34,715 nt of DNA from Rhodospirillales bacterium (GTDB lineage Bacteria; Pseudomonadota; Alphaproteobacteria; Rhodospirillales; Magnetospirillaceae), in contig JACMKT010000136.1 of assembly GCA_014380005.1 (NCBI GenBank), forward strand, positions 1-34,715. Direction: 5' to 3'. The position numbers were made by a program, and so were the translations under genes. Numbering within the stretch: position 1 is the first letter of the stretch; each line of letters begins with the position of its first letter. Positions 2,236 through 11,025 of the stretch are shown here, piece after piece. The notes beneath the pieces were generated by a model, which saw only the letters and a program-made list of their open reading frames with translations, ran no database searches and had not been told where the DNA came from.

Positions 2236-4788
2236 TTGCACTCATTCGCACGGTTCCGGGGCGGCTTGCGGCGCCACCTTGTGCTTCTCGTCCTGGTCAC
2301 CCTGGTTCCCATGTTGCTGTGGGCGGCCGGCCTGACCCTGTGGAGCTCTCTGCAAGAGCGCCGGACCATGGAGCGGGGCCTGAGCGAGACCGCGCGCGCC
2401 CTGACCATCGCCGTGGAACAGGAAATCCGCCTGACCATGGCGGCTTTGGACAGTGCCGCCCTGTCGCCCGCTTTGGTGAACGACGATGTGCCAGCCTTCG
2501 CCGATGCGGCGCGCCGTTTGGCGGCCATTCACCCTGAATGGAACAATACGGTTCTGTACGACGCGAACGGCCAGCAGGTGCAGAACAGCCTGCGGCCACA
2601 CGGCACCATGCTGCCCGCCTTGTCCGAACCGGGTTACGAGGAGGCCGCCAAGGCGGTGCGCACGGTCATCGAGACGGGGCGCCCGGCAGTGTCCAACCTG
2701 TTTTATGGCCAGATATCGGGCACCAACGTCCTGCTGGTGGCGGTGCCCGTGCGCAACCGCGCCGGCCTGCTGGCCCATGTGCTGGCCGCCGCCATCCGCC
2801 CCGAACGTCTAGGCGACCTGCTGGCGGCCCAGCAAATGCCCGAAGGGTGGTTCGCCAGCGTTATCGACAGTGCTGGAATCGCCATCACCCGTGTACCCGG
2901 GCACGATCAGGTCTCCGGCCTTCTGGTGCCGGATTGGGTCCGCGCCAATCTGGCCGCCGCACCCCACGGCATCGCCAACGGGACCTCCCTGGTGGGCGAC
3001 AAGGTGACGGTGGCGTATGAACGCTCGAATCTGACCGGCTGGAGCGTGATCTTCGGCGCCAATCGCAGTCTGTTCCATGCCAATCTGCGCGGCTCGTTGG
3101 TGGTGACAGTGGGGTTCGGCGCGTTGGTGCTGGCGGGGTCGTTGTTGCTGGCCTTCGCCATGGCCCGGCGCATTCTTGGGCCGGTGCAGGCGCTGACGGC
3201 GGCGGCGAGGCCGTTCATTGAGGACCGCAAGGTAGCGGGCAGCATCTTCGGCATCGCCGAGTTGGATGCCATGCATCAGGCGCTGGACGTGCTGACCGGC
3301 GAACTGGCCAAGACCCAGCAGCACTTCCTGACCTTCTTCTCGGCGGCGCCGGTCATGCTGTTCGTCCAGGACGAGGCTGGCCGGCTGATCGCGGTGAACG
3401 ATGCCTGGCTGCGCACCCTGGGCTATGATCATGACGAGGTGCTGGGCCGCTGCCCATGGGAATTCCATACCGAACAGTCGCGCGCCTATGGCGAGGCGGT
3501 GGTGTGGCCGGACTTCCTGAAGCGCGGTCAGATGGATGCCGTGTGGGGCGAGGTCCTGACCAAAACCGGCGAGGTGCGCGACGTACTGGTTTCGCTGCGC
3601 GCCGACCGTGACGGGGATGGCCACATCATACGCACCATCGGCGCGGTGCAAGACGTCACCGAGCAGCGCCGGGCCGAGAATGCCCTGGCCCGCGCGGTGG
3701 AAGAGGCCGAGCGCGCCAATGATTCAAAGACCCGCTTCCTGGCTGCCGCGAGTCACGATCTGCGCCAGCCCTTGCAGGCATTGGCGCTGTATCTCGGGGT
3801 GCTGAAGGCCCGGCTTAATGGCCGCGAGGAACAGGTGATGGACGCCGTCGGCCAGTGCATCGAAGCCCTGACCGGCCTGTTGAACGACATGCTGGACGTG
3901 GCCCGCCTGGATGCGGGCGTCATCACTCCCAAATTGGCCGAAGTGCCGGTCAACCGCCTGCTGGAGCGGGTGGCGGCGGCGTGGCGCATCCAGGCCGAAG
4001 CCAAGGGCCTGCGGTTGGAGGTGGTCGCCTCGGACAAGGTGGTGCACACTGACCCGGCGCTCATGGACCGGGTGCTGTCCAATCTGGTCGCCAACGCGGT
4101 GCGCTATACCGAGCACGGGCGCATCCTGGTGGGCTGCCGGACCGCCGGTCCCGGTCAGGTGCGCCTTGAGGTGTGGGACACCGGCATCGGCATCCCCAAT
4201 GACAAGCTGGGCGAAATCTTCGAGGAATTCCGCCAGTTGGGCAACCCCGAGCGGCGCCGTGACCGGGGCACCGGGTTGGGCCTTGCCATCGTCCAGCGCA
4301 TCGCTGATTTGCTGGGCCATCGCCTCTGCGTGCGCTCGGTGGCGGGCAAGGGCTCGGTGTTCACTGTGACCGTGCCCGCTGCGCCCGCCTGCAGCCTGGA
4401 GGTAACCGTCGCCCCCGAAAGCCACGACGAGGCCCGCCGCATTCTGGTGGTGGACGACGAAATCCACGTGCGCAACGCGCTGGAACTGGTCCTGGGCGAA
4501 ATGGGCCATCGGGTCGAGGGCGTCGAGACGGTGGAGGACGCAGTGCAAAGCACCAAGCGCCACCGTCCCGAACTGGTCATCGCCGATTTCCGCTTGGCCG
4601 ACGGTAAAACCGGCATCGACGTCATCCGCGCCGTACGCGGCCAATGCGGTAATCAGGTCCCGGCGGTGGTGCTGACCGGCGATACCGACCCGGCCACCAT
4701 CCGCCGTATCGTGGGCGAGGGGCTGCATCTGCTGCACAAGCCCGTCCAATTGGAGGCGTTGCGGGCGTTCTTGAAGCACGTGGCTTGA
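2236..4788 (+). CDS. Membrane hybrid histidine kinase (extracytoplasmic sensor-PAS-HisKA-HATPase-REC)
   Basis: An 850-aa hybrid sensor kinase. Transmembrane segments at about residues 14-36 and 287-309 enclose a roughly 250-residue periplasmic region resembling a double-Cache sensor. A PAS domain follows (about 360-480, ending IGAVQDVTEQRR). The dimerisation helix carries H507 in SHDLRQPLQALALYL, a variant H-box of a distinct hybrid-kinase subgroup. The ATPase domain shows NLVANAVRYTE, DTGIGIP and GTGLGLAIVQRI. The terminal receiver has D740/D741, phospho-acceptor D784 and K835. No Hpt domain is fused, so onward transfer needs a separate Hpt; one is encoded at 22084. The start is a TTG at 2236 with AAGGGAG at 2224-2230. 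The protein is paralogous to the kinase at 7675-9603 from HisKA through REC, but the sensors differ. Confidence 0.92.
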   Translation: MHSFARFRGGLRRHLVLLVLVTLVPMLLWAAGLTLWSSLQERRTMERGLSETARALTIAVEQEIRLTMAALDSAALSPALVNDDVPAFADAARRLAAIHPEWNNTVLYDANGQQVQNSLRPHGTMLPALSEPGYEEAAKAVRTVIETGRPAVSNLFYGQISGTNVLLVAVPVRNRAGLLAHVLAAAIRPERLGDLLAAQQMPEGWFASVIDSAGIAITRVPGHDQVSGLLVPDWVRANLAAAPHGIANGTSLVGDKVTVAYERSNLTGWSVIFGANRSLFHANLRGSLVVTVGFGALVLAGSLLLAFAMARRILGPVQALTAAARPFIEDRKVAGSIFGIAELDAMHQALDVLTGELAKTQQHFLTFFSAAPVMLFVQDEAGRLIAVNDAWLRTLGYDHDEVLGRCPWEFHTEQSRAYGEAVVWPDFLKRGQMDAVWGEVLTKTGEVRDVLVSLRADRDGDGHIIRTIGAVQDVTEQRRAENALARAVEEAERANDSKTRFLAAASHDLRQPLQALALYLGVLKARLNGREEQVMDAVGQCIEALTGLLNDMLDVARLDAGVITPKLAEVPVNRLLERVAAAWRIQAEAKGLRLEVVASDKVVHTDPALMDRVLSNLVANAVRYTEHGRILVGCRTAGPGQVRLEVWDTGIGIPNDKLGEIFEEFRQLGNPERRRDRGTGLGLAIVQRIADLLGHRLCVRSVAGKGSVFTVTVPAAPACSLEVTVAPESHDEARRILVVDDEIHVRNALELVLGEMGHRVEGVETVEDAVQSTKRHRPELVIADFRLADGKTGIDVIRAVRGQCGNQVPAVVLTGDTDPATIRRIVGEGLHLLHKPVQLEALRAFLKHVA

Positions 4789-4918: not shown

Positions 4919-6031
4919 ATGCTTGCCGAATGCCTTGCCGGCACCAGGGTGCTTGACCTGACCCAATACATCCCCGGTCCCTTCGCTACCCAATGGCTGT
5001 CGGATCTGGGCGCCGAGGTGGTCAAGATCGAGCCGCCGGCGGGTGATCCCATGCGCACCATGGGGCCGCTGGATGCGGACGGCACCACGGTTTTCTACAA
5101 GCTCGCCAACCGCAACAAATCCGTGGTGATGCTGGATTTGAAAAGCGAGCACGGCAAGGCCGCTTTCGCCAAGCTGGTGGAAAAGGCCGATGTGCTGCTG
5201 GAGGCCTATCGCCCCGGCGTGCTGACCCGGCTGGGCTTTGGGCCGGAGGTGCTGGACGGCCTTAACCCCAAGCTGATCCATTGCTCGCTGTCCGGGTACG
5301 GCCAGACCGGCCCCATGGCCCCCGCCGCCGGTCACGACCTCACCTATATGGCGCTGACCGGCGGGCTGTTCGCCAGCGGCACCAGCGAGCGCCCGGTGAT
5401 GACCTTCCCGCCCTTGGCCGATCATGCCGGGGCCATGCTGACCATGACCGCCATCCTGGCCGCTCTGGTGCGCCGGGGCACCACCGGCAAGGGCGCGCGG
5501 CTGGATGTCAGCCTGTCGGAAGCGGCGCTGGCGTGGATGCCCGGCGCCCTGACCGGCGCCCATCGCTGGGGCGCGGAAAAGCGCGAAGAAGGGCTGATCA
5601 ATGGCGGCGCCGCGTTCTACCGCATCTACCAGACCCGGGATGGCCGCTTCGTCGCCTTGGCGGCGCTGGAGGAAAAGTTCTGGCAGAAATTCTGCGACAC
5701 CGTGGGCCGCACCGAATGGGTCCATCGTCACGGTGAAACCTTGCCGCAGACCGAGTTGATTGCCGAACTGGACGCCCTGTTCCTGACCCGCACCCGTGAT
5801 GAATGGGTGGCGCTGCTCAAGCCCGCCGATTGCTGTTTCGAGCCGGTGCTGGAGCCGGGCGAGGTGGCCGCGCACCCGCAATGGAAGGACCGCGAGCTGG
5901 TTCAGTCCAATGTGGATAGTGACAGGCTGGTGGAGGTGTTGCTGCCGGTGCTGCTGGACGGCGCCCGCGCGCTGCACCGCCGCCCGTTCAAGCTGGATAG
6001 TGCCGAAGGAGTGCTGGCGGGATGGCGCTAG
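4919..6031 (+). CDS. CaiB/BaiF family III CoA-transferase, alpha-methylacyl-CoA racemase-like
   Basis: A 370-aa family III CoA-transferase-fold protein, starting LAGTRVLDLTQYIPGPF. Three residues fall where mycobacterial alpha-methylacyl-CoA racemase (MCR) has its catalytic set: H139 in AGHDLTYMALTG, D168 in LADHAGAML and E251 in LAALEEKFW. The spacing (29 and 83 residues) is close to that of MCR (30 and 85). I therefore favour racemisation of a 2-methyl-branched acyl-CoA over CoA transfer, although a transferase cannot be excluded. The start is ATG 4919, preceded by GGGAG at 4908-4912; an upstream in-frame TTG at 4859 has no ribosome-binding site and would overlap the repeat. The last 10 nt overlap cobC, pointing to an operon with cobC and the HAD gene. 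Confidence 0.87.
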   Translation: MLAECLAGTRVLDLTQYIPGPFATQWLSDLGAEVVKIEPPAGDPMRTMGPLDADGTTVFYKLANRNKSVVMLDLKSEHGKAAFAKLVEKADVLLEAYRPGVLTRLGFGPEVLDGLNPKLIHCSLSGYGQTGPMAPAAGHDLTYMALTGGLFASGTSERPVMTFPPLADHAGAMLTMTAILAALVRRGTTGKGARLDVSLSEAALAWMPGALTGAHRWGAEKREEGLINGGAAFYRIYQTRDGRFVALAALEEKFWQKFCDTVGRTEWVHRHGETLPQTELIAELDALFLTRTRDEWVALLKPADCCFEPVLEPGEVAAHPQWKDRELVQSNVDSDRLVEVLLPVLLDGARALHRRPFKLDSAEGVLAGWR

Positions 6032-6993
6032 GTCTGCCCATCCACGGCGGCGACCTTGCCGGGGCGGAAGCCCGTTGGGGCCGTCCGGCGGCGGGTTGGC
6101 TGGATTTGTCCACCGGCATCAATCCATGGCCCTATACGCTGCCGTCCCTGCCGGCTGAGGCCTGGACCCGCCTGCCCGGTGGGGCGGAGGACGCGGCTTT
6201 GCGCGCCGCCGCCGCCCGGCGCTTCGGCACCGATCCCGCCCAAATTCTGGCCGCCCCCGGCACCAGCGCCTTGATCCAGGCCCTGCCGCGCACCCGTCCG
6301 CCCGGCCCGGTGGCGGTGGTCGGCCCCACCTATGGCGAGCACGCCCGCGCCTGGGCCGCCGCCGGCCATACCGTGACCGAAATTGCCACCTTGGATGAAG
6401 CGGATGCCCCGGTGGTGGTGGTGGTCAATCCCAACAATCCCGATGGCCGCGTGGCCGCTCCTGCCGCCCTGTTGGCCCGCGTCAAGCCCGGCGCCCTGCT
6501 GGTGGTGGACGAGGCGTTCGGCGATATGGCCCCCGCCTTGTCGGTGGCGCCGCTTCTTCGTCCCGGCATGGTGGTGCTGCGCTCCTTCGGCAAGTTCTAC
6601 GGCCTTGCCGGTCTGCGCTTGGGCTTCGTCCTCGGCCTGCCCGAGATATTGGCCCCGGTGGCGGCGCAATTGGGACCGTGGCCGGTCTCCGGCCCGGCCC
6701 TGGCCGTGGGCGCGGCGGCATTGTCCGACGATGCCTGGGGCGACGCCATGATTGCCCGGCTGGCCCAATGGTCCGAACGGCTGGACGGCGTGCTGGCGGC
6801 GGGCGGTTTGACGGTGACCGGCGGCACCAGCCTGTTCCGCTTGGCCTCCCATCCCCAGGCCGCATCCCTGTACGACCTGCTGGGCCGCGCCGGAATTCTG
6901 GTGCGTGCGTTCGAAAACCGCCCCCATCTGCTGCGCTTCGGCTTGCCTGCCCATGAGGCGGACTTGGTCCGTCTGGCCCAAGCCTTAACATGA
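6022..6993 (+). CDS. cobC: L-threonine-O-3-phosphate decarboxylase-like aminotransferase CobC
   Basis: A 323-aa fold-type I PLP enzyme of the histidinol-phosphate aminotransferase/CobC branch. HGGDLAGAEARWG and WLDLSTGINPWPY at the N-terminus are the hallmark of alphaproteobacterial CobC. NPNNPDGR (136-143), VVDEAFGDM and the PLP lysine K191 in RSFGKFYGLAGLRLG complete the active site. CobC (CobD in Salmonella naming) makes the aminopropanol-phosphate arm of cobalamin from threonine phosphate, or acts at that point of the pathway in the cytoplasm. No other cobalamin gene is in the window: the upstream partner is a CoA racemase (10-nt overlap) and the downstream one a HAD phosphatase (ATGA, 4-nt overlap). 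Length is near the family norm of about 330. Confidence 0.85.
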   Translation: MALGLPIHGGDLAGAEARWGRPAAGWLDLSTGINPWPYTLPSLPAEAWTRLPGGAEDAALRAAAARRFGTDPAQILAAPGTSALIQALPRTRPPGPVAVVGPTYGEHARAWAAAGHTVTEIATLDEADAPVVVVVNPNNPDGRVAAPAALLARVKPGALLVVDEAFGDMAPALSVAPLLRPGMVVLRSFGKFYGLAGLRLGFVLGLPEILAPVAAQLGPWPVSGPALAVGAAALSDDAWGDAMIARLAQWSERLDGVLAAGGLTVTGGTSLFRLASHPQAASLYDLLGRAGILVRAFENRPHLLRFGLPAHEADLVRLAQALT

Positions 6994-7685
6994 TCACCGC
7001 CATCGCCTTCGACGGCGACGACACCCTGTGGCACAACGAGCCGCTGTTTTGGGCCTCGACCCAGCGGTTCCAGGAATTGCTGGCGCCCTATTCCGACCCC
7101 GCCGCCCTGGCCGAGCGCCTGACCGCCACCGAGATCGCCAATCTGGGGCTGTTCGGCTACGGCATTAAAGGCTTCGTGCTGTCCATGATCGAAACCGCCA
7201 TCCAGGTCTCGGGCGGGCAGGTGCCCAATGGTGTGATTCAGGAATTCCTTGATCGCGGCAAGCATATGCTGGCCCATCCGGTGCACCTGCTGGACGGCGT
7301 CGCCGAGGCGGTGGCCGCCGTGCGTGCCCGTGGCGTCACCGTGATGCTGATCACCAAGGGCGATCTGTTCGACCAGGAAAGCAAGCTGGCGCGCTCTGGT
7401 CTGGCAGAGCTGTTCGACGTGGTGGAGATCGTCAGCGAAAAGGATGCCGGAACCTACAAACGCGTGCTCGCCCGCCAGGGCATCGCGCCCGAGCAGACGG
7501 TGATGGTGGGCAATTCCGTGCGCTCGGATGTCCTGCCCATGCTGGAATCCGGCGGCTGGGCGGTGCATCTGCCCTATGCCAGCACCTGGGTTCACGAACA
7601 CGCCGACGCCCCCACGGGCCATGCGCGCTACCGCAGGATCGGCGGGATGGCGGAGTTAGCCGGGGTGCTGGACGCTATCGCCTAA
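6990..7685 (+). CDS. HAD-superfamily hydrolase (probable phosphatase)
   Basis: A 231-aa haloacid-dehalogenase-type hydrolase. Motif I is FDGDDTLWHNE, a DxDDT variant of the usual DxDGT. Motif II is in VTVMLITKGD, a motif III lysine lies in DAGTYKRVL, and motif IV is VGNSVRSDV. The helical insertion between motifs I and II (about residues 15-100) fits a subfamily I cap. Such enzymes remove phosphate from small metabolites; the substrate cannot be read from sequence. The start ATG overlaps the cobC stop as ATGA, so translation is probably coupled. One could speculate that it acts on a phosphorylated intermediate next to CobC, but nothing in the sequence shows this. Its 3' end overlaps the convergent kinase gene by 11 bp, leaving no room for a terminator. 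Confidence 0.88.
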   Translation: MITAIAFDGDDTLWHNEPLFWASTQRFQELLAPYSDPAALAERLTATEIANLGLFGYGIKGFVLSMIETAIQVSGGQVPNGVIQEFLDRGKHMLAHPVHLLDGVAEAVAAVRARGVTVMLITKGDLFDQESKLARSGLAELFDVVEIVSEKDAGTYKRVLARQGIAPEQTVMVGNSVRSDVLPMLESGGWAVHLPYASTWVHEHADAPTGHARYRRIGGMAELAGVLDAIA

Positions 7686-9603
7686 GCGCCCCCAGCAGCA
7701 CCCGTAGCCGCATGGGGTCCAGGGGTTTGCGCAGGACCTGAAGGTTCTCATTTCCGCCGATTTCAGCCGGGGCGCCGGTATCGCCGGTGAATAGATAGGC
7801 GGTAGCCGCCACGCCCGTGCGTTGGCGGATGGAGTTGATGGCCGCCACGCCGGAATTTTTGTCGTGCAGATGCAGATCGGCCAGGATGGCGTCGGGCTGG
7901 ACGCCCAGTTCAGTCAGCATGGCGATGGCTTCGTCGGCTGACGCTGCCACCACCGGGGTGCAGCCCCATTCCTCCAGCAGCATCTCCAGCCCCTCCTGAA
8001 TGTCGGGGTCGTCATCCACCACCACCACGGTGGTGCCGCTGACGTCGTGAACTTCCTCATGTTTCGACGCAGTGGCGGTGACCGGCAGGAATTCTTCGGC
8101 CAGGGGCACATCCACGGCGAAGACTGAACCGCGCCCCTCGGTGGAGCGCACGTCCAGGGCATGGCCCAGCAGGCGGGCAAGGCGCTGGACGATGGATAGG
8201 CCCAGTCCGGTGCCGGCCCCATGCCCGGCGGCGTTGGGGGTGGCGCATTGGCGGAATTCGCGGAAGATTTCCAGGCGCTGGCTTTCGGGGATGCCGGGGC
8301 CGGTGTCGTAGACCGCCACCCGCACCCGGCTGCCATGGTGGCGCACTCCCAGCAGCACCGTGCCGGAACGGGTGTAGCGGATGGCGTTGGACAGGAAATT
8401 GCCGATGATGCGGGTCAGCAGGCGCGGATCGCTTTTCAGCGCGGCGCTGGACGGCACCACGCGCAATTCCAGCCCGGCGGCTTCCGCTTGGGGGCCGTAG
8501 GTGGTCTCCAATTGCTCGAAGATGTCGTTGATCAGGAAGATTTGGGGTTCCGCCTTCATCACCCCGGCATCCAGCTTGGACATGTCCAGTAAGGCGTCGA
8601 ACATTTCCTCCATGCCGCGCAACGACGTCTTCAGCGATTGCACGATGGTGCGTCCCTGGGGTGTGGCAACGTGGTGGTCCAGGGCCGAGGCGAACAGCGC
8701 CATGGCTTGCAGCGGCTGGCGCAGATCATGGCTGGCGGCGGCCAGGAAGCGCATGCGGGCGCGGATGTTGCGCTCGGCTTCCTCATTGGCCTCGGTCAGG
8801 CGTTGTTCCTTCTGCTTAAGTTGGGTTACGTCCTGGAACACCAAGACGTAGCGGTCCTCGCTTTGCGCTTTGAAGCGCTGGGCAGAGGCCAAAAGCCATA
8901 GCAGCTGTCCATCGGGCCGACGCGCCCGCGTTTCCACCCGATACACTGAATCGTGATATTGGATCTGGTGGAACAAGCTGCTTTCGGCGATTTCGTCTTC
9001 CTCGGCGAAGTCTTGGACGTGGCGGCCGGGCAGCGAGCCGGCGGGCACGCCCAAAGCTTCTTCCGCCGCCTGATTGGCGCGCCGGATGGTGCCGTCGATG
9101 CACACCGTCAGCATGGGCAGGGGGATGGCCCCGGTGAAGGCGCGCAGGCGGGTCTCGCTCTGCTTCACCCGTTCCTCGGCGTCGCGGGCCTGGGTCAGGT
9201 CGGTCAGGCCGCCGATGAAGGCGACCAGGCGGCCCGAGGCATCGCGGATGGGGCGGATATCCACCTCCATCCAGAATGACTCGCCGTTCTTGCGGTAGTT
9301 CAGCAATTCGGTCCGGACCGCTTCGCCCCGGGTGATGGCTTCGCGCACTCGGCCCAAATTGGCGCGGTCGGTGCCAGGACCCTGCAGCAGGCGCATGTTG
9401 CGGCCCAATAATTCTTCAGGGCCATAGCCGGTGATGGCGGTCAGTTCGCGGTTGGCGAAGACGATGGGGTTGTCGGGCTGGTTCGGGTCGGTGATGGCGA
9501 TGCCCAAGGGGGCCGCGTCCAGCGCCAATTCCATGGGCACCAAGGCGGCTGCCGACTGAGCGTCAAGGGCAGGGATACCCTGCCTGCGGTTTGAATCGAC
9601 CAT
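7675..9603 (-). CDS. Soluble hybrid histidine kinase with Cys-less LOV-like PAS, second PAS and receiver
   Basis: A 642-aa kinase without membrane segments. Residues about 25-140 form a PAS domain that follows the LOV template closely (TGYGPEELLGRN, LLQGPGTD, LLNYRKNGESFW). The photoactive cysteine of the GxNCRFLQ motif is M70, the second flavin-contacting Asn (FWN) is M112, and the final Gln (GIQSD) is L133. N69, R71, Q74 and N102 remain. A second PAS spans about 150-262. H292 lies in SHDLRQPLQAMALF; ATPase motifs are NFLSNAIRYT, DTGPGIP and GTGLGLSIVQRL. The receiver has D530/D531, phospho-acceptor D576 and K626. A free Hpt would be required for onward transfer. The ATG at 9603 has only a weak CCAGG upstream. 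It is divergent from the regulatory operon at 9965 and shares a 361-bp intergenic region with it. Confidence 0.92.
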   Translation of the reverse strand: MVDSNRRQGIPALDAQSAAALVPMELALDAAPLGIAITDPNQPDNPIVFANRELTAITGYGPEELLGRNMRLLQGPGTDRANLGRVREAITRGEAVRTELLNYRKNGESFWMEVDIRPIRDASGRLVAFIGGLTDLTQARDAEERVKQSETRLRAFTGAIPLPMLTVCIDGTIRRANQAAEEALGVPAGSLPGRHVQDFAEEDEIAESSLFHQIQYHDSVYRVETRARRPDGQLLWLLASAQRFKAQSEDRYVLVFQDVTQLKQKEQRLTEANEEAERNIRARMRFLAAASHDLRQPLQAMALFASALDHHVATPQGRTIVQSLKTSLRGMEEMFDALLDMSKLDAGVMKAEPQIFLINDIFEQLETTYGPQAEAAGLELRVVPSSAALKSDPRLLTRIIGNFLSNAIRYTRSGTVLLGVRHHGSRVRVAVYDTGPGIPESQRLEIFREFRQCATPNAAGHGAGTGLGLSIVQRLARLLGHALDVRSTEGRGSVFAVDVPLAEEFLPVTATASKHEEVHDVSGTTVVVVDDDPDIQEGLEMLLEEWGCTPVVAASADEAIAMLTELGVQPDAILADLHLHDKNSGVAAINSIRQRTGVAATAYLFTGDTGAPAEIGGNENLQVLRKPLDPMRLRVLLGALRR

Positions 9604-10216: not shown

Positions 10217-10303
10217 ATGATGCTGGTCATCCCGCAATGGCCGCTTCTCTTCCGGTGGATCTCAGGCGCCGTAGGCTTCCACATGCGAAGGGGTGCTTCA
10301 TGA
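10217..10303 (+). CDS. 28-aa ORF translationally coupled to the LuxR-type regulator
   Basis: This tiny ORF runs from ATG 10217 to a TGA at 10301-10303 that overlaps the next start codon as ATGA. It has its own strong ribosome-binding site, AAGGGAG at 10204-10210, 6 nt from the start. The product starts MMLVIPQWPLLFRWISG and is hydrophobic and Trp-rich, followed by a basic tail (HMRRGAS), so it could associate with the membrane. It could be a functional micropeptide or a translated leader that sets expression of the regulator. Evidence is the site, spacing and exact stop-start overlap; no homology is claimed. Confidence 0.5.
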   Translation: MMLVIPQWPLLFRWISGAVGFHMRRGAS

Positions 10304-11025
10304 TCGACGCGACATTGAATCAACCATCGGTTCCTCAGGTGCCGGTGGCGCTCGCCGTCGAAGACACGCACATGGTCAGCGAAATCGTCGGCCGGTTCGA
10401 ACCGTCCGAGCGGCAAGATGTGCACATCCTCGACGATCCCCGGCAATTGGTCGAACATCCCGAGACCTCGCCGGGCGAGGTGACCATCATTTCCTATCCG
10501 GTGATGAAACAGCTCGCCAAGTACCATCTGGATGAGTTGGCCGAGTTCTGCCGCAACAACAAGGCGGTCCTGCTGATCCGCTCGCCGGAATTTCTCGATT
10601 CCATCGGCTTTCTGGAATTCGTCGATGGCGTGATTTTCGCCGACGCCAATATGGAACGGGTGCGCGATATCCTGCAGCTGTCCAAATCGGGCTATTCCAT
10701 CCTGCCCTCGGCGGCGGTGATGGATATCGTCACCGACCGGCTGCGCTGCGACACCTTGCAGAAACTATCCTTCATCGAATTGTCCATCCTTGATCAGGTG
10801 CGGCTGGCGAAAACCAACCGCGCCATTGCCCGTTCGTTGGGGCTGACCGAGGCCAATGTGAAGACCAAGGTGCGGGCCATCTTGAAAGCCCTGAAATTCC
10901 AGAACCGCACCGAGGCGGCGGTGTTCGCGGCGCGCCAGAACGAACTGATCCGCCAGTCCCTGGCGCGGCGCGGCAAGGAAAAGGGGGTGGGCGAACCGCC
11001 CCAGGACAAGGCTGCGCCTCACTGA
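10300..11025 (+). CDS. LuxR-type DNA-binding regulator with degenerate receiver domain
   Basis: A 241-aa protein. The C-terminal third (about residues 155-212) is a NarL/LuxR helix-turn-helix: LSFIELSILDQ, TNRAIARSLGLTEANVKTKVR and FQNRTEAAV. The N-terminal 135 residues look like a receiver fold, but the acidic pocket is ED at 21-22 and the strand that should end in the phospho-Asp reads VTIISYP, with S65 at about that position. The conserved Lys is also not evident. It is therefore probably phosphorylation-independent, or regulated by a ligand or partner. The start is ATG 10300, with GAAGGGG upstream and an ATGA overlap with the 28-aa ORF. It is divergent from the LOV-like kinase gene, a natural but unproven partner. 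The C-terminal tail is basic and disordered. Confidence 0.82.
   Translation: MIDATLNQPSVPQVPVALAVEDTHMVSEIVGRFEPSERQDVHILDDPRQLVEHPETSPGEVTIISYPVMKQLAKYHLDELAEFCRNNKAVLLIRSPEFLDSIGFLEFVDGVIFADANMERVRDILQLSKSGYSILPSAAVMDIVTDRLRCDTLQKLSFIELSILDQVRLAKTNRAIARSLGLTEANVKTKVRAILKALKFQNRTEAAVFAARQNELIRQSLARRGKEKGVGEPPQDKAAPH

Follow-up and report, generated by a model that had tools for sequence, protein, structure and literature searches.

The first PAS domain (PAS1) of a hybrid sensor histidine kinase encoded in the window, here the whole 34,715-nucleotide stretch of Rhodospirillales DNA that was analysed, falls on the side of the LOV domains in its sequence, its predicted fold and phylogenetic trees, and carries Met70, Met112 and Leu133 at the positions of the adduct-forming cysteine, the second flavin-contacting asparagine and the terminal glutamine. 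The triple change is not confined to this protein: all three canonical residues are also replaced in related kinases. The reading that we favour, at an even chance of being correct, is that PAS1 is a non-photoactive relative of LOV domains, probably with a flavin still bound through its tail and a single asparagine, and that it responds to redox state. PAS1 is probably no ordinary light switch, and may detect redox state or some other ligand.

The kinase (642 amino acids, positions 7675–9603, reverse strand) contains two PAS stretches, HisKA, HATPase_c and Response_reg in Pfam searches, arranged as PAS1(LOV-like)-PAS2-HisKA-HATPase-REC, all on the reverse strand. The window feature at 9184–9531 corresponds to residues 25–140 of the protein and PAS1 itself to residues 26–138 (9190–9528), with PAS2 covering residues ~150–272 (8788–9156) according to Pfam and the alignment of relatives described below. 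Within HisKA (8563–8757) lies SHDLRQ (8716–8733), which we take to be the phospho-acceptor motif; HATPase_c (8098–8430) has motifs that we assign as N-box and G-box from general knowledge, and the C-terminal receiver (7705–8028) has DDD, D (in LADLHLHD), T and K motifs that we likewise presume to be those of a receiver. The best NCBIfam match of the kinase core is NF041832 (NahK/ErcS) at 365.2 bits, below the curated cut-off of 400, so the core appears to resemble the NahK/ErcS family though it falls under the family cut-off. Membership of NifL was rejected, with TIGR02938 scoring 115 bits where its cut-off is 242. A second hybrid kinase (2236–4788, forward strand; dCache-PAS-HisKA-HATPase-REC) lies ~3 kb from the PAS1 kinase and also has a NahK/ErcS-like core (354 bits to NF041832, again short of the cut-off).

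A pseudogene or assembly error was ruled out: the reading frame is open, and the assembly carries the locus a second time on a different contig (G000:C238; loci L002 and L112), with the same neighbours and a kinase 83% identical that also has Met70, Met112 and Leu133. With assembly contamination listed at 6.25%, the two copies may represent two strains binned together. In another genome (G010; L009/L113), the kinase frame breaks near residue 567 and the remainder continues in another frame, a frameshift or an assembly error.

The pocket residues can be read directly from the sequence. The loop GRNMRLLQG (9379–9405) supplies Asn69, Met70 at the cysteine position, Arg71 and Gln74; LNYRKNGESFWM (9268–9303) supplies the retained Asn102 and Met112 at the second-asparagine site; and FIGGLTD (9199–9219) supplies Leu133 on the last strand, where LOV domains have the terminal glutamine. 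Residues 70 and 112 are encoded by ATG and residue 133 by CTG. These seven assignments had been made in a preliminary description and are all correct; Arg87 (9343–9345), absent from that list, aligns with the second phosphate-contacting arginine of LOV domains and is also retained.

To place these changes, we compared eight copies of the domain, from seven genomes within a single bacterial family (hereafter the group), to which the window's assembly contributes two. Whole-kinase matches at E 1e-150 or better were found in 10 of the 55 family genomes searched, the seven among them. Met112 and Leu133 occur in all eight sequences, and residue 70 is Met in two and Leu in six. Gln74 and Asn102 are likewise invariant, Arg71 is kept in seven (Ser in one), residue 69 is Asn in four and Ser in four, and residue 87 is Arg in six and His in two. 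A ninth sequence (L104) has Leu70, Met112 and Met133. Decay has gone further in the more distant homologues: L015 has Asp69, Leu70, Ser71, Leu74, Gln102, Ala112 and Phe133, L016 has lost Asn69, Arg71, Gln74 and Asn102 in addition to the cysteine, second asparagine and glutamine, and L017, L018 and L019 have no PAS1-type domain in open frame. Neither an order-wide search (whole kinase at E 1e-120 in 2 of 199 genomes, both already known) nor a class-wide search with a PAS1-PAS2 profile (6 of 385 genomes at E 1e-45: the window's own, four with Cys in the matched domain, and one with NPR and both asparagines) extended the group.

Conservation of the cysteine, second-asparagine and glutamine losses in orthologues bears out the earlier suggestion that the three together argue against simple adduct chemistry, and cysteinyl adduct formation as in canonical LOV domains is very unlikely for PAS1, judging from its residues. 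It also bears on whether the changes are neutral decay of an unneeded domain, a reading that fits the absence of the domain from some homologues and to which we give scarcely any weight, since Met112 and Leu133 are invariant despite a mean PAS1 divergence of ~45% and PAS1 dN/dS is <0.6 in each of the four pairs tested (0.23, 0.52, 0.25 and 0.29). These ratios point to purifying selection, with synonymous sites partly saturated. Conservation of PAS1 matches or exceeds that of PAS2, with mean pairwise identities of 55% and 50%, respectively (28 pairs of the eight sequences).

The preliminary description had seen a LOV template in PAS1, and the resemblance is indeed far beyond chance. The nearest solved sequences are Chloroflexus LOV domains (E 3.6e-34; PDB phmmer, best 60 of 154 matches at E 1e-5). 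For a profile built from nine members of the group, the best 60 of 166 matches are LOV proteins, judging by names and entry codes, several of these carrying only the name ‘histidine kinase’. An AlphaFold2 model of PAS1 built from a 61-row alignment has a mean pLDDT of 96.7, and the best 50 of its 1340 Foldseek matches are all LOV domains or LOV-containing constructs; the predicted fold is that of a LOV-type PAS domain.

The LOV assignment also held in phylogenetic trees, which were built after deleting pocket columns 70, 112 and 133. A placement clearly outside the LOV branch, named in the preliminary description as an outcome that would refute its reading, was not obtained. In a 49-row tree, the group and the other LOV domains (37 rows in all) separate from 12 NifL/Trp-type PAS rows with support of 100/98. 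This tree is a 58-row set minus four long-branched and five ‘other PAS’ rows; with Aer and the other long-branched PAS outgroups included, support for the LOV-side split is 90/90, which is not significant and counts against the placement. The group itself forms one clade (99/94 in the 49-row tree and 99/95 in the 58-row tree), a support that covers nine rows with NML or NMM, as the strongly decayed L015 and L016 were left out of both trees. Two PAS2 rows that fell on long branches inside the group in a first tree were dropped from both.

The trees allow a different history, in which the group is a sister line of LOV domains that keeps an older, non-photochemical sensor of flavin or a flavin-like ligand, with the tail anchors and first asparagine in place, and never gained the cysteine, the second asparagine or the glutamine. 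Holding all other LOV rows together, with the group beside them, cost 0.37 log units in the 58-row tree (AU p 0.49) and 4.26 log units in the 49-row tree (AU p 0.33), so the group may sit either within the LOV branch or next to it. A clade of the 26 Cys rows alone was rejected (p-AU 0.0012, 58-row tree), but such a clade also shuts out the other Cys-less LOV domains, so its rejection is no proof that the group lies inside LOV. We consider the sister-line history unlikely; if true, it would make the group a living test of the proposed origin of LOV photoreceptors from redox flavoproteins.

A comparison with 84 Cys-bearing LOV rows locates the losses. Of the 40 columns conserved at ≥85% in these rows, the group keeps 24 (in at least seven of eight sequences), is mixed in 11 and has lost five: column 41, Cys70, Asn112, Leu114 (Val in seven of eight) and Gln133. 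The last four face the flavin ring, positions that we presume from AsLOV2 numbering and partly from general knowledge. The comparison set was mostly retrieved with peptide patterns of the window protein, two of which span columns 38–45 and 108–115; column 41 was discounted because it lies inside such a stretch, where conservation is biased. Losses are enriched in the pocket with p = 0.012 without column 41 and 0.043 with it, a result of only moderate strength that rests on 14 pocket columns chosen by us, partly from general knowledge. Overall, the pattern suggests that the surroundings of the ring have changed while the LOV scaffold has stayed largely intact, and it does not look like general decay. 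Taking side-chain volumes from general knowledge, the three changes bring ~126 cubic angstroms of extra bulk to the ring.

Substitutions at the second-asparagine site occur elsewhere, with His in 7 of the 84 Cys-bearing rows, Ile or Val in the Cys-less L098 and L058, Val in Aer, and Ala in all four NifL rows. Cyanobacterial LOV domains with His at this site and both the cysteine and the terminal glutamine kept are L060, L072, L075, L079, L081, L083 and L094. In four further Cys-bearing LOV domains (L107, L108, L109 and L106), the glutamine site is occupied by Met in three cases and by Ile in one.

Loss of the cysteine is common locally, as Cys-less domains are frequent in the family. LOV-profile matches at E 1e-34 are present in 22 of the 55 family genomes, and among the 12 matches examined of 21 in the window's assembly (E ≤ 1e-10), none has Cys at position 70. 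The family matches include Cys-less LOV-like domains of a different kind, with Ala or Pro at position 70, His at 74, and both asparagines and the terminal glutamine retained (L168, L170, L175–L182, L184 and L185), and Cys-bearing LOV domains were found in two family genomes, one each (L187 and L188). Those of L175–L182, L184 and L185, which read NARFLH or NPRFLH, come from other family genomes, six of them from the genus of the window itself. As other departures, L189 has Ala and His at the second-asparagine and glutamine sites, and L186 has Val at the second asparagine. It is the replacement of the second asparagine by Met and of the glutamine by Leu that marks the PAS1 group.

Does such a pocket still hold flavin? 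Continued binding is plausible by analogy with characterised LOV domains. Ribityl and phosphate contacts in YtvA are reported to be made by N61, R63, Q66 and R79 (PMC3836802), which we match to PAS1 residues 69, 71, 74 and 87. Retention of these contacts is not special, because the group also keeps many of the LOV-conserved columns that lie outside the pocket, as the 24 of 40 overall indicates, and the serines at residue 69 in half of the group and at residue 71 in one sequence count against flavin retention. In AsLOV2, where N482 corresponds to the kept Asn102 and N492 to Met112, the C450V, N492A and Q513L variants are described as characterised with an FMN spectrum, N482A was not obtained in quantity, probably through poor FMN binding, and N492Q was also not obtained in quantity (PMC3903614). 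A long side chain at residue 112 may therefore be harmful, and, with alanine tolerated and the longer glutamine not, methionine here could go either way. A single asparagine is reported to contact FAD N3/O4 in Aer (PMC9668731), and Cys-less LOV proteins are reported to signal through flavin reduction (PMC4682037). Methionine placed near the flavin is described as shifting the midpoint potential upward in almost every AsLOV2 variant tested (PMC11151830). No family or structure match shown pointed to heme or another known cofactor in PAS1.

The strongest competing reading, which we hold at somewhat under an even chance, is that PAS1 has lost its flavin, with Met or Leu70, Met112 and Leu133 filling or greasing the ring site. 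In its favour are the placement of three larger hydrophobic residues at the ring, two of them invariant, and the series from L104 through L015 and L016 to the domain-less L017–L019, in which some homologues have decayed or lost PAS1 while keeping the kinase and its LuxR partner. A precedent is provided by the KCNH channels (PMC10468136, PMC3598652): in hERG, F98, H70 and F129 are described around a cavity of ~110 cubic angstroms, whereas the FMN site in a phototropin LOV1 measures 730 (PMC3598652). From an offset of four relative to the motif, these residues presumably occupy positions Asn102, Gln74 and Gln133, and hERG would then have replaced the first asparagine and the glutamine at the mouth of the pocket, whereas the group retains both in all eight sequences, as well as most copies of Arg71 (7/8) and Arg87 (6/8). 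Taking the AsLOV2 variants, Aer and the kept tail contacts against the added bulk, Leu133 and the KCNH channels, we judge flavin retention to be about evenly poised, somewhat ahead of flavin loss.

Were flavin retained, PAS1 could in principle still be a blue-light receptor that works by flavin photoreduction and forms no adduct. Cys-less LOV variants are reported to respond to light in this way (PMC4682037), and AsLOV2 C450A:Q513D, which has neither the cysteine nor the glutamine, is described as light-responsive by photoreduction (PMC9098866). Against this reading, adding Q513L to Cys-less AsLOV2 is reported not to enhance the semiquinone significantly (PMC9098866), and methionine near the flavin is reported to make AsLOV2 photoactivation less efficient (PMC11151830). 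We see little chance that PAS1 acts in this way.

The kinase has a conserved genetic partner, a LuxR-type regulator encoded upstream and divergently (10303–11025, forward strand). Its N-terminus is degenerate and receiver-like: only the DNA-binding half scores above the Pfam cut-off, and Ser or Ala stands at the expected phospho-acceptor Asp (17 aligned rows, by eye). Of 12 homologue regions compared, a set to which those of G022, G024 and G036 do not belong, 11 have the regulator next to the kinase; in the twelfth (L117), the kinase match lies ~1 kb from the start of its contig, and two other contigs carry LuxR homologues. A search at E 1e-50 found the regulator in 16 of the 55 family genomes: 15 in which the kinase was also seen (14 at E 1e-100 and one more at 1e-150), and G002, a 79% complete assembly. 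Within the group, identity to the window is 77–93% for LuxR against 55–83% for the kinase, and beside kinases with a decayed or lost PAS1 it is still 64–69% for LuxR (four regions). As LuxR is better conserved than the kinase and stays when PAS1 decays, PAS1 looks like an input that was altered or dropped while the kinase and its regulator stayed together as a stable pair. Also nearby is cobD (6022–6993, forward strand; threonine-phosphate decarboxylase, TIGR01140 above cut-off), flanked by genes for a CaiB-type CoA-transferase and a HAD hydrolase. A vitamin B12-related ligand, which this neighbour brought to mind, was set aside because cobD is near only some of the kinase homologues.

The flavin occupancy, redox signal and direction of signalling that we infer under the favoured reading of a redox-sensing PAS1 would operate as follows. 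PAS1 would be a LOV relative in which the surroundings of the flavin ring turned hydrophobic and were then maintained by selection. A flavin nucleotide would be gripped through tail contacts with Arg71, Arg87, Gln74 and Asn69 or Ser69, and through Asn102, the first asparagine, as in single-asparagine redox PAS domains such as Aer. Reduction or oxidation of the flavin, chemical and possibly light-assisted, would shift the β-sheet and the helix following PAS1, and then PAS2, and would set autophosphorylation of the NahK/ErcS-like core, with phosphotransfer to the kinase's own receiver.

Among the matches listed, the closest known structures are the Chloroflexus LOV domains (CisFbFP, 7oo9; CagFbFP, 6rhf/6rhg and variants), which share the fold of PAS1 and are 54% (7oo9) or ~50% (the others) identical to it over ~105 columns. 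These entries carry engineered changes, including the Cys-to-Ala base and a Q148V variant (8pky) titled as flavin-based fluorescent proteins, and none among the matches listed combines, by title, replacements of the cysteine, second asparagine and glutamine.

Both Cys-less and Gln-less LOV domains are already known (PMC4682037, PMC9098866), and the cysteine is reported in 57% of the LOV cluster, so that its loss is common (PMC10468136). The LOV* proteins, such as halobacterial BAT, are like PAS1 in being LOV-like without the adduct cysteine, and redox or photoreduction sensing has been proposed for them (PMC4682037). The LOV-deltaQ receptors are like it in having a hydrophobic residue, mostly Leu or Ile, at the glutamine site, and some 350 are reported (PMC9098866). 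The suggestion in the preliminary description that additional loss of the glutamine is less usual therefore needs refining, as glutamine loss alone is not rare; what is unusual here is the joining of cysteine and glutamine loss with loss of the second asparagine, and the conservation of all three. The published LOV* filter is described as at least nine other conserved residues, nine being named (Yee et al. 2015, PMC4682037), and the LOV-deltaQ filter as at least eight of nine residues, the cysteine and both asparagines among the nine (Dietler et al. 2022, PMC9098866). PAS1 has six of nine in each case (for LOV*, G, N, R, L, Q and the first N), so both surveys, as their filters are described, would pass it over. 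In a literature search of titles and abstract starts, mostly outside subscription papers, the group was not described.

The FAD redox PAS domains of Aer, NifL and MmoS share with PAS1 a kept first asparagine, which is invariant in the group and predicted from the alignment to contact flavin, a non-polar second-asparagine site and the lack of a cysteine. They differ at two sites. A Trp in helix F-alpha is reported as the main FAD determinant (PMC10468136); the Aer and NifL rows have Trp at the Arg87 site (4/4 NifL rows), where the group has Arg or His. The glutamine site is polar in redox PAS domains, reported as Arg115 in Aer (PMC9668731) and His in 4/4 NifL rows; PAS1 lacks such a polar Arg or His near flavin N5, and the invariant Leu133 of the group counts against the redox-sensing reading.

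The KCNH (EAG/hERG) PAS domains are like PAS1 in belonging to the LOV cluster with hydrophobic residues in the flavin pocket, and may derive from an alphaproteobacterial FMN-PAS (PMC10468136); they differ in the first asparagine and the mouth glutamine, replaced there, by the offset given above, and retained here. Set beside these systems, PAS1 offers a pocket shaped by natural selection, where Met or Leu has jointly replaced the cysteine and the polar residues that partner the N3/O4/N5 edge of the flavin, and where most tail contacts are kept. If flavin is bound, the domain would show how few polar contacts hold it in a LOV scaffold, with methionine tuning its redox behaviour; or else it would be an intermediate toward flavin-free domains of the LOV cluster such as the KCNH PAS.
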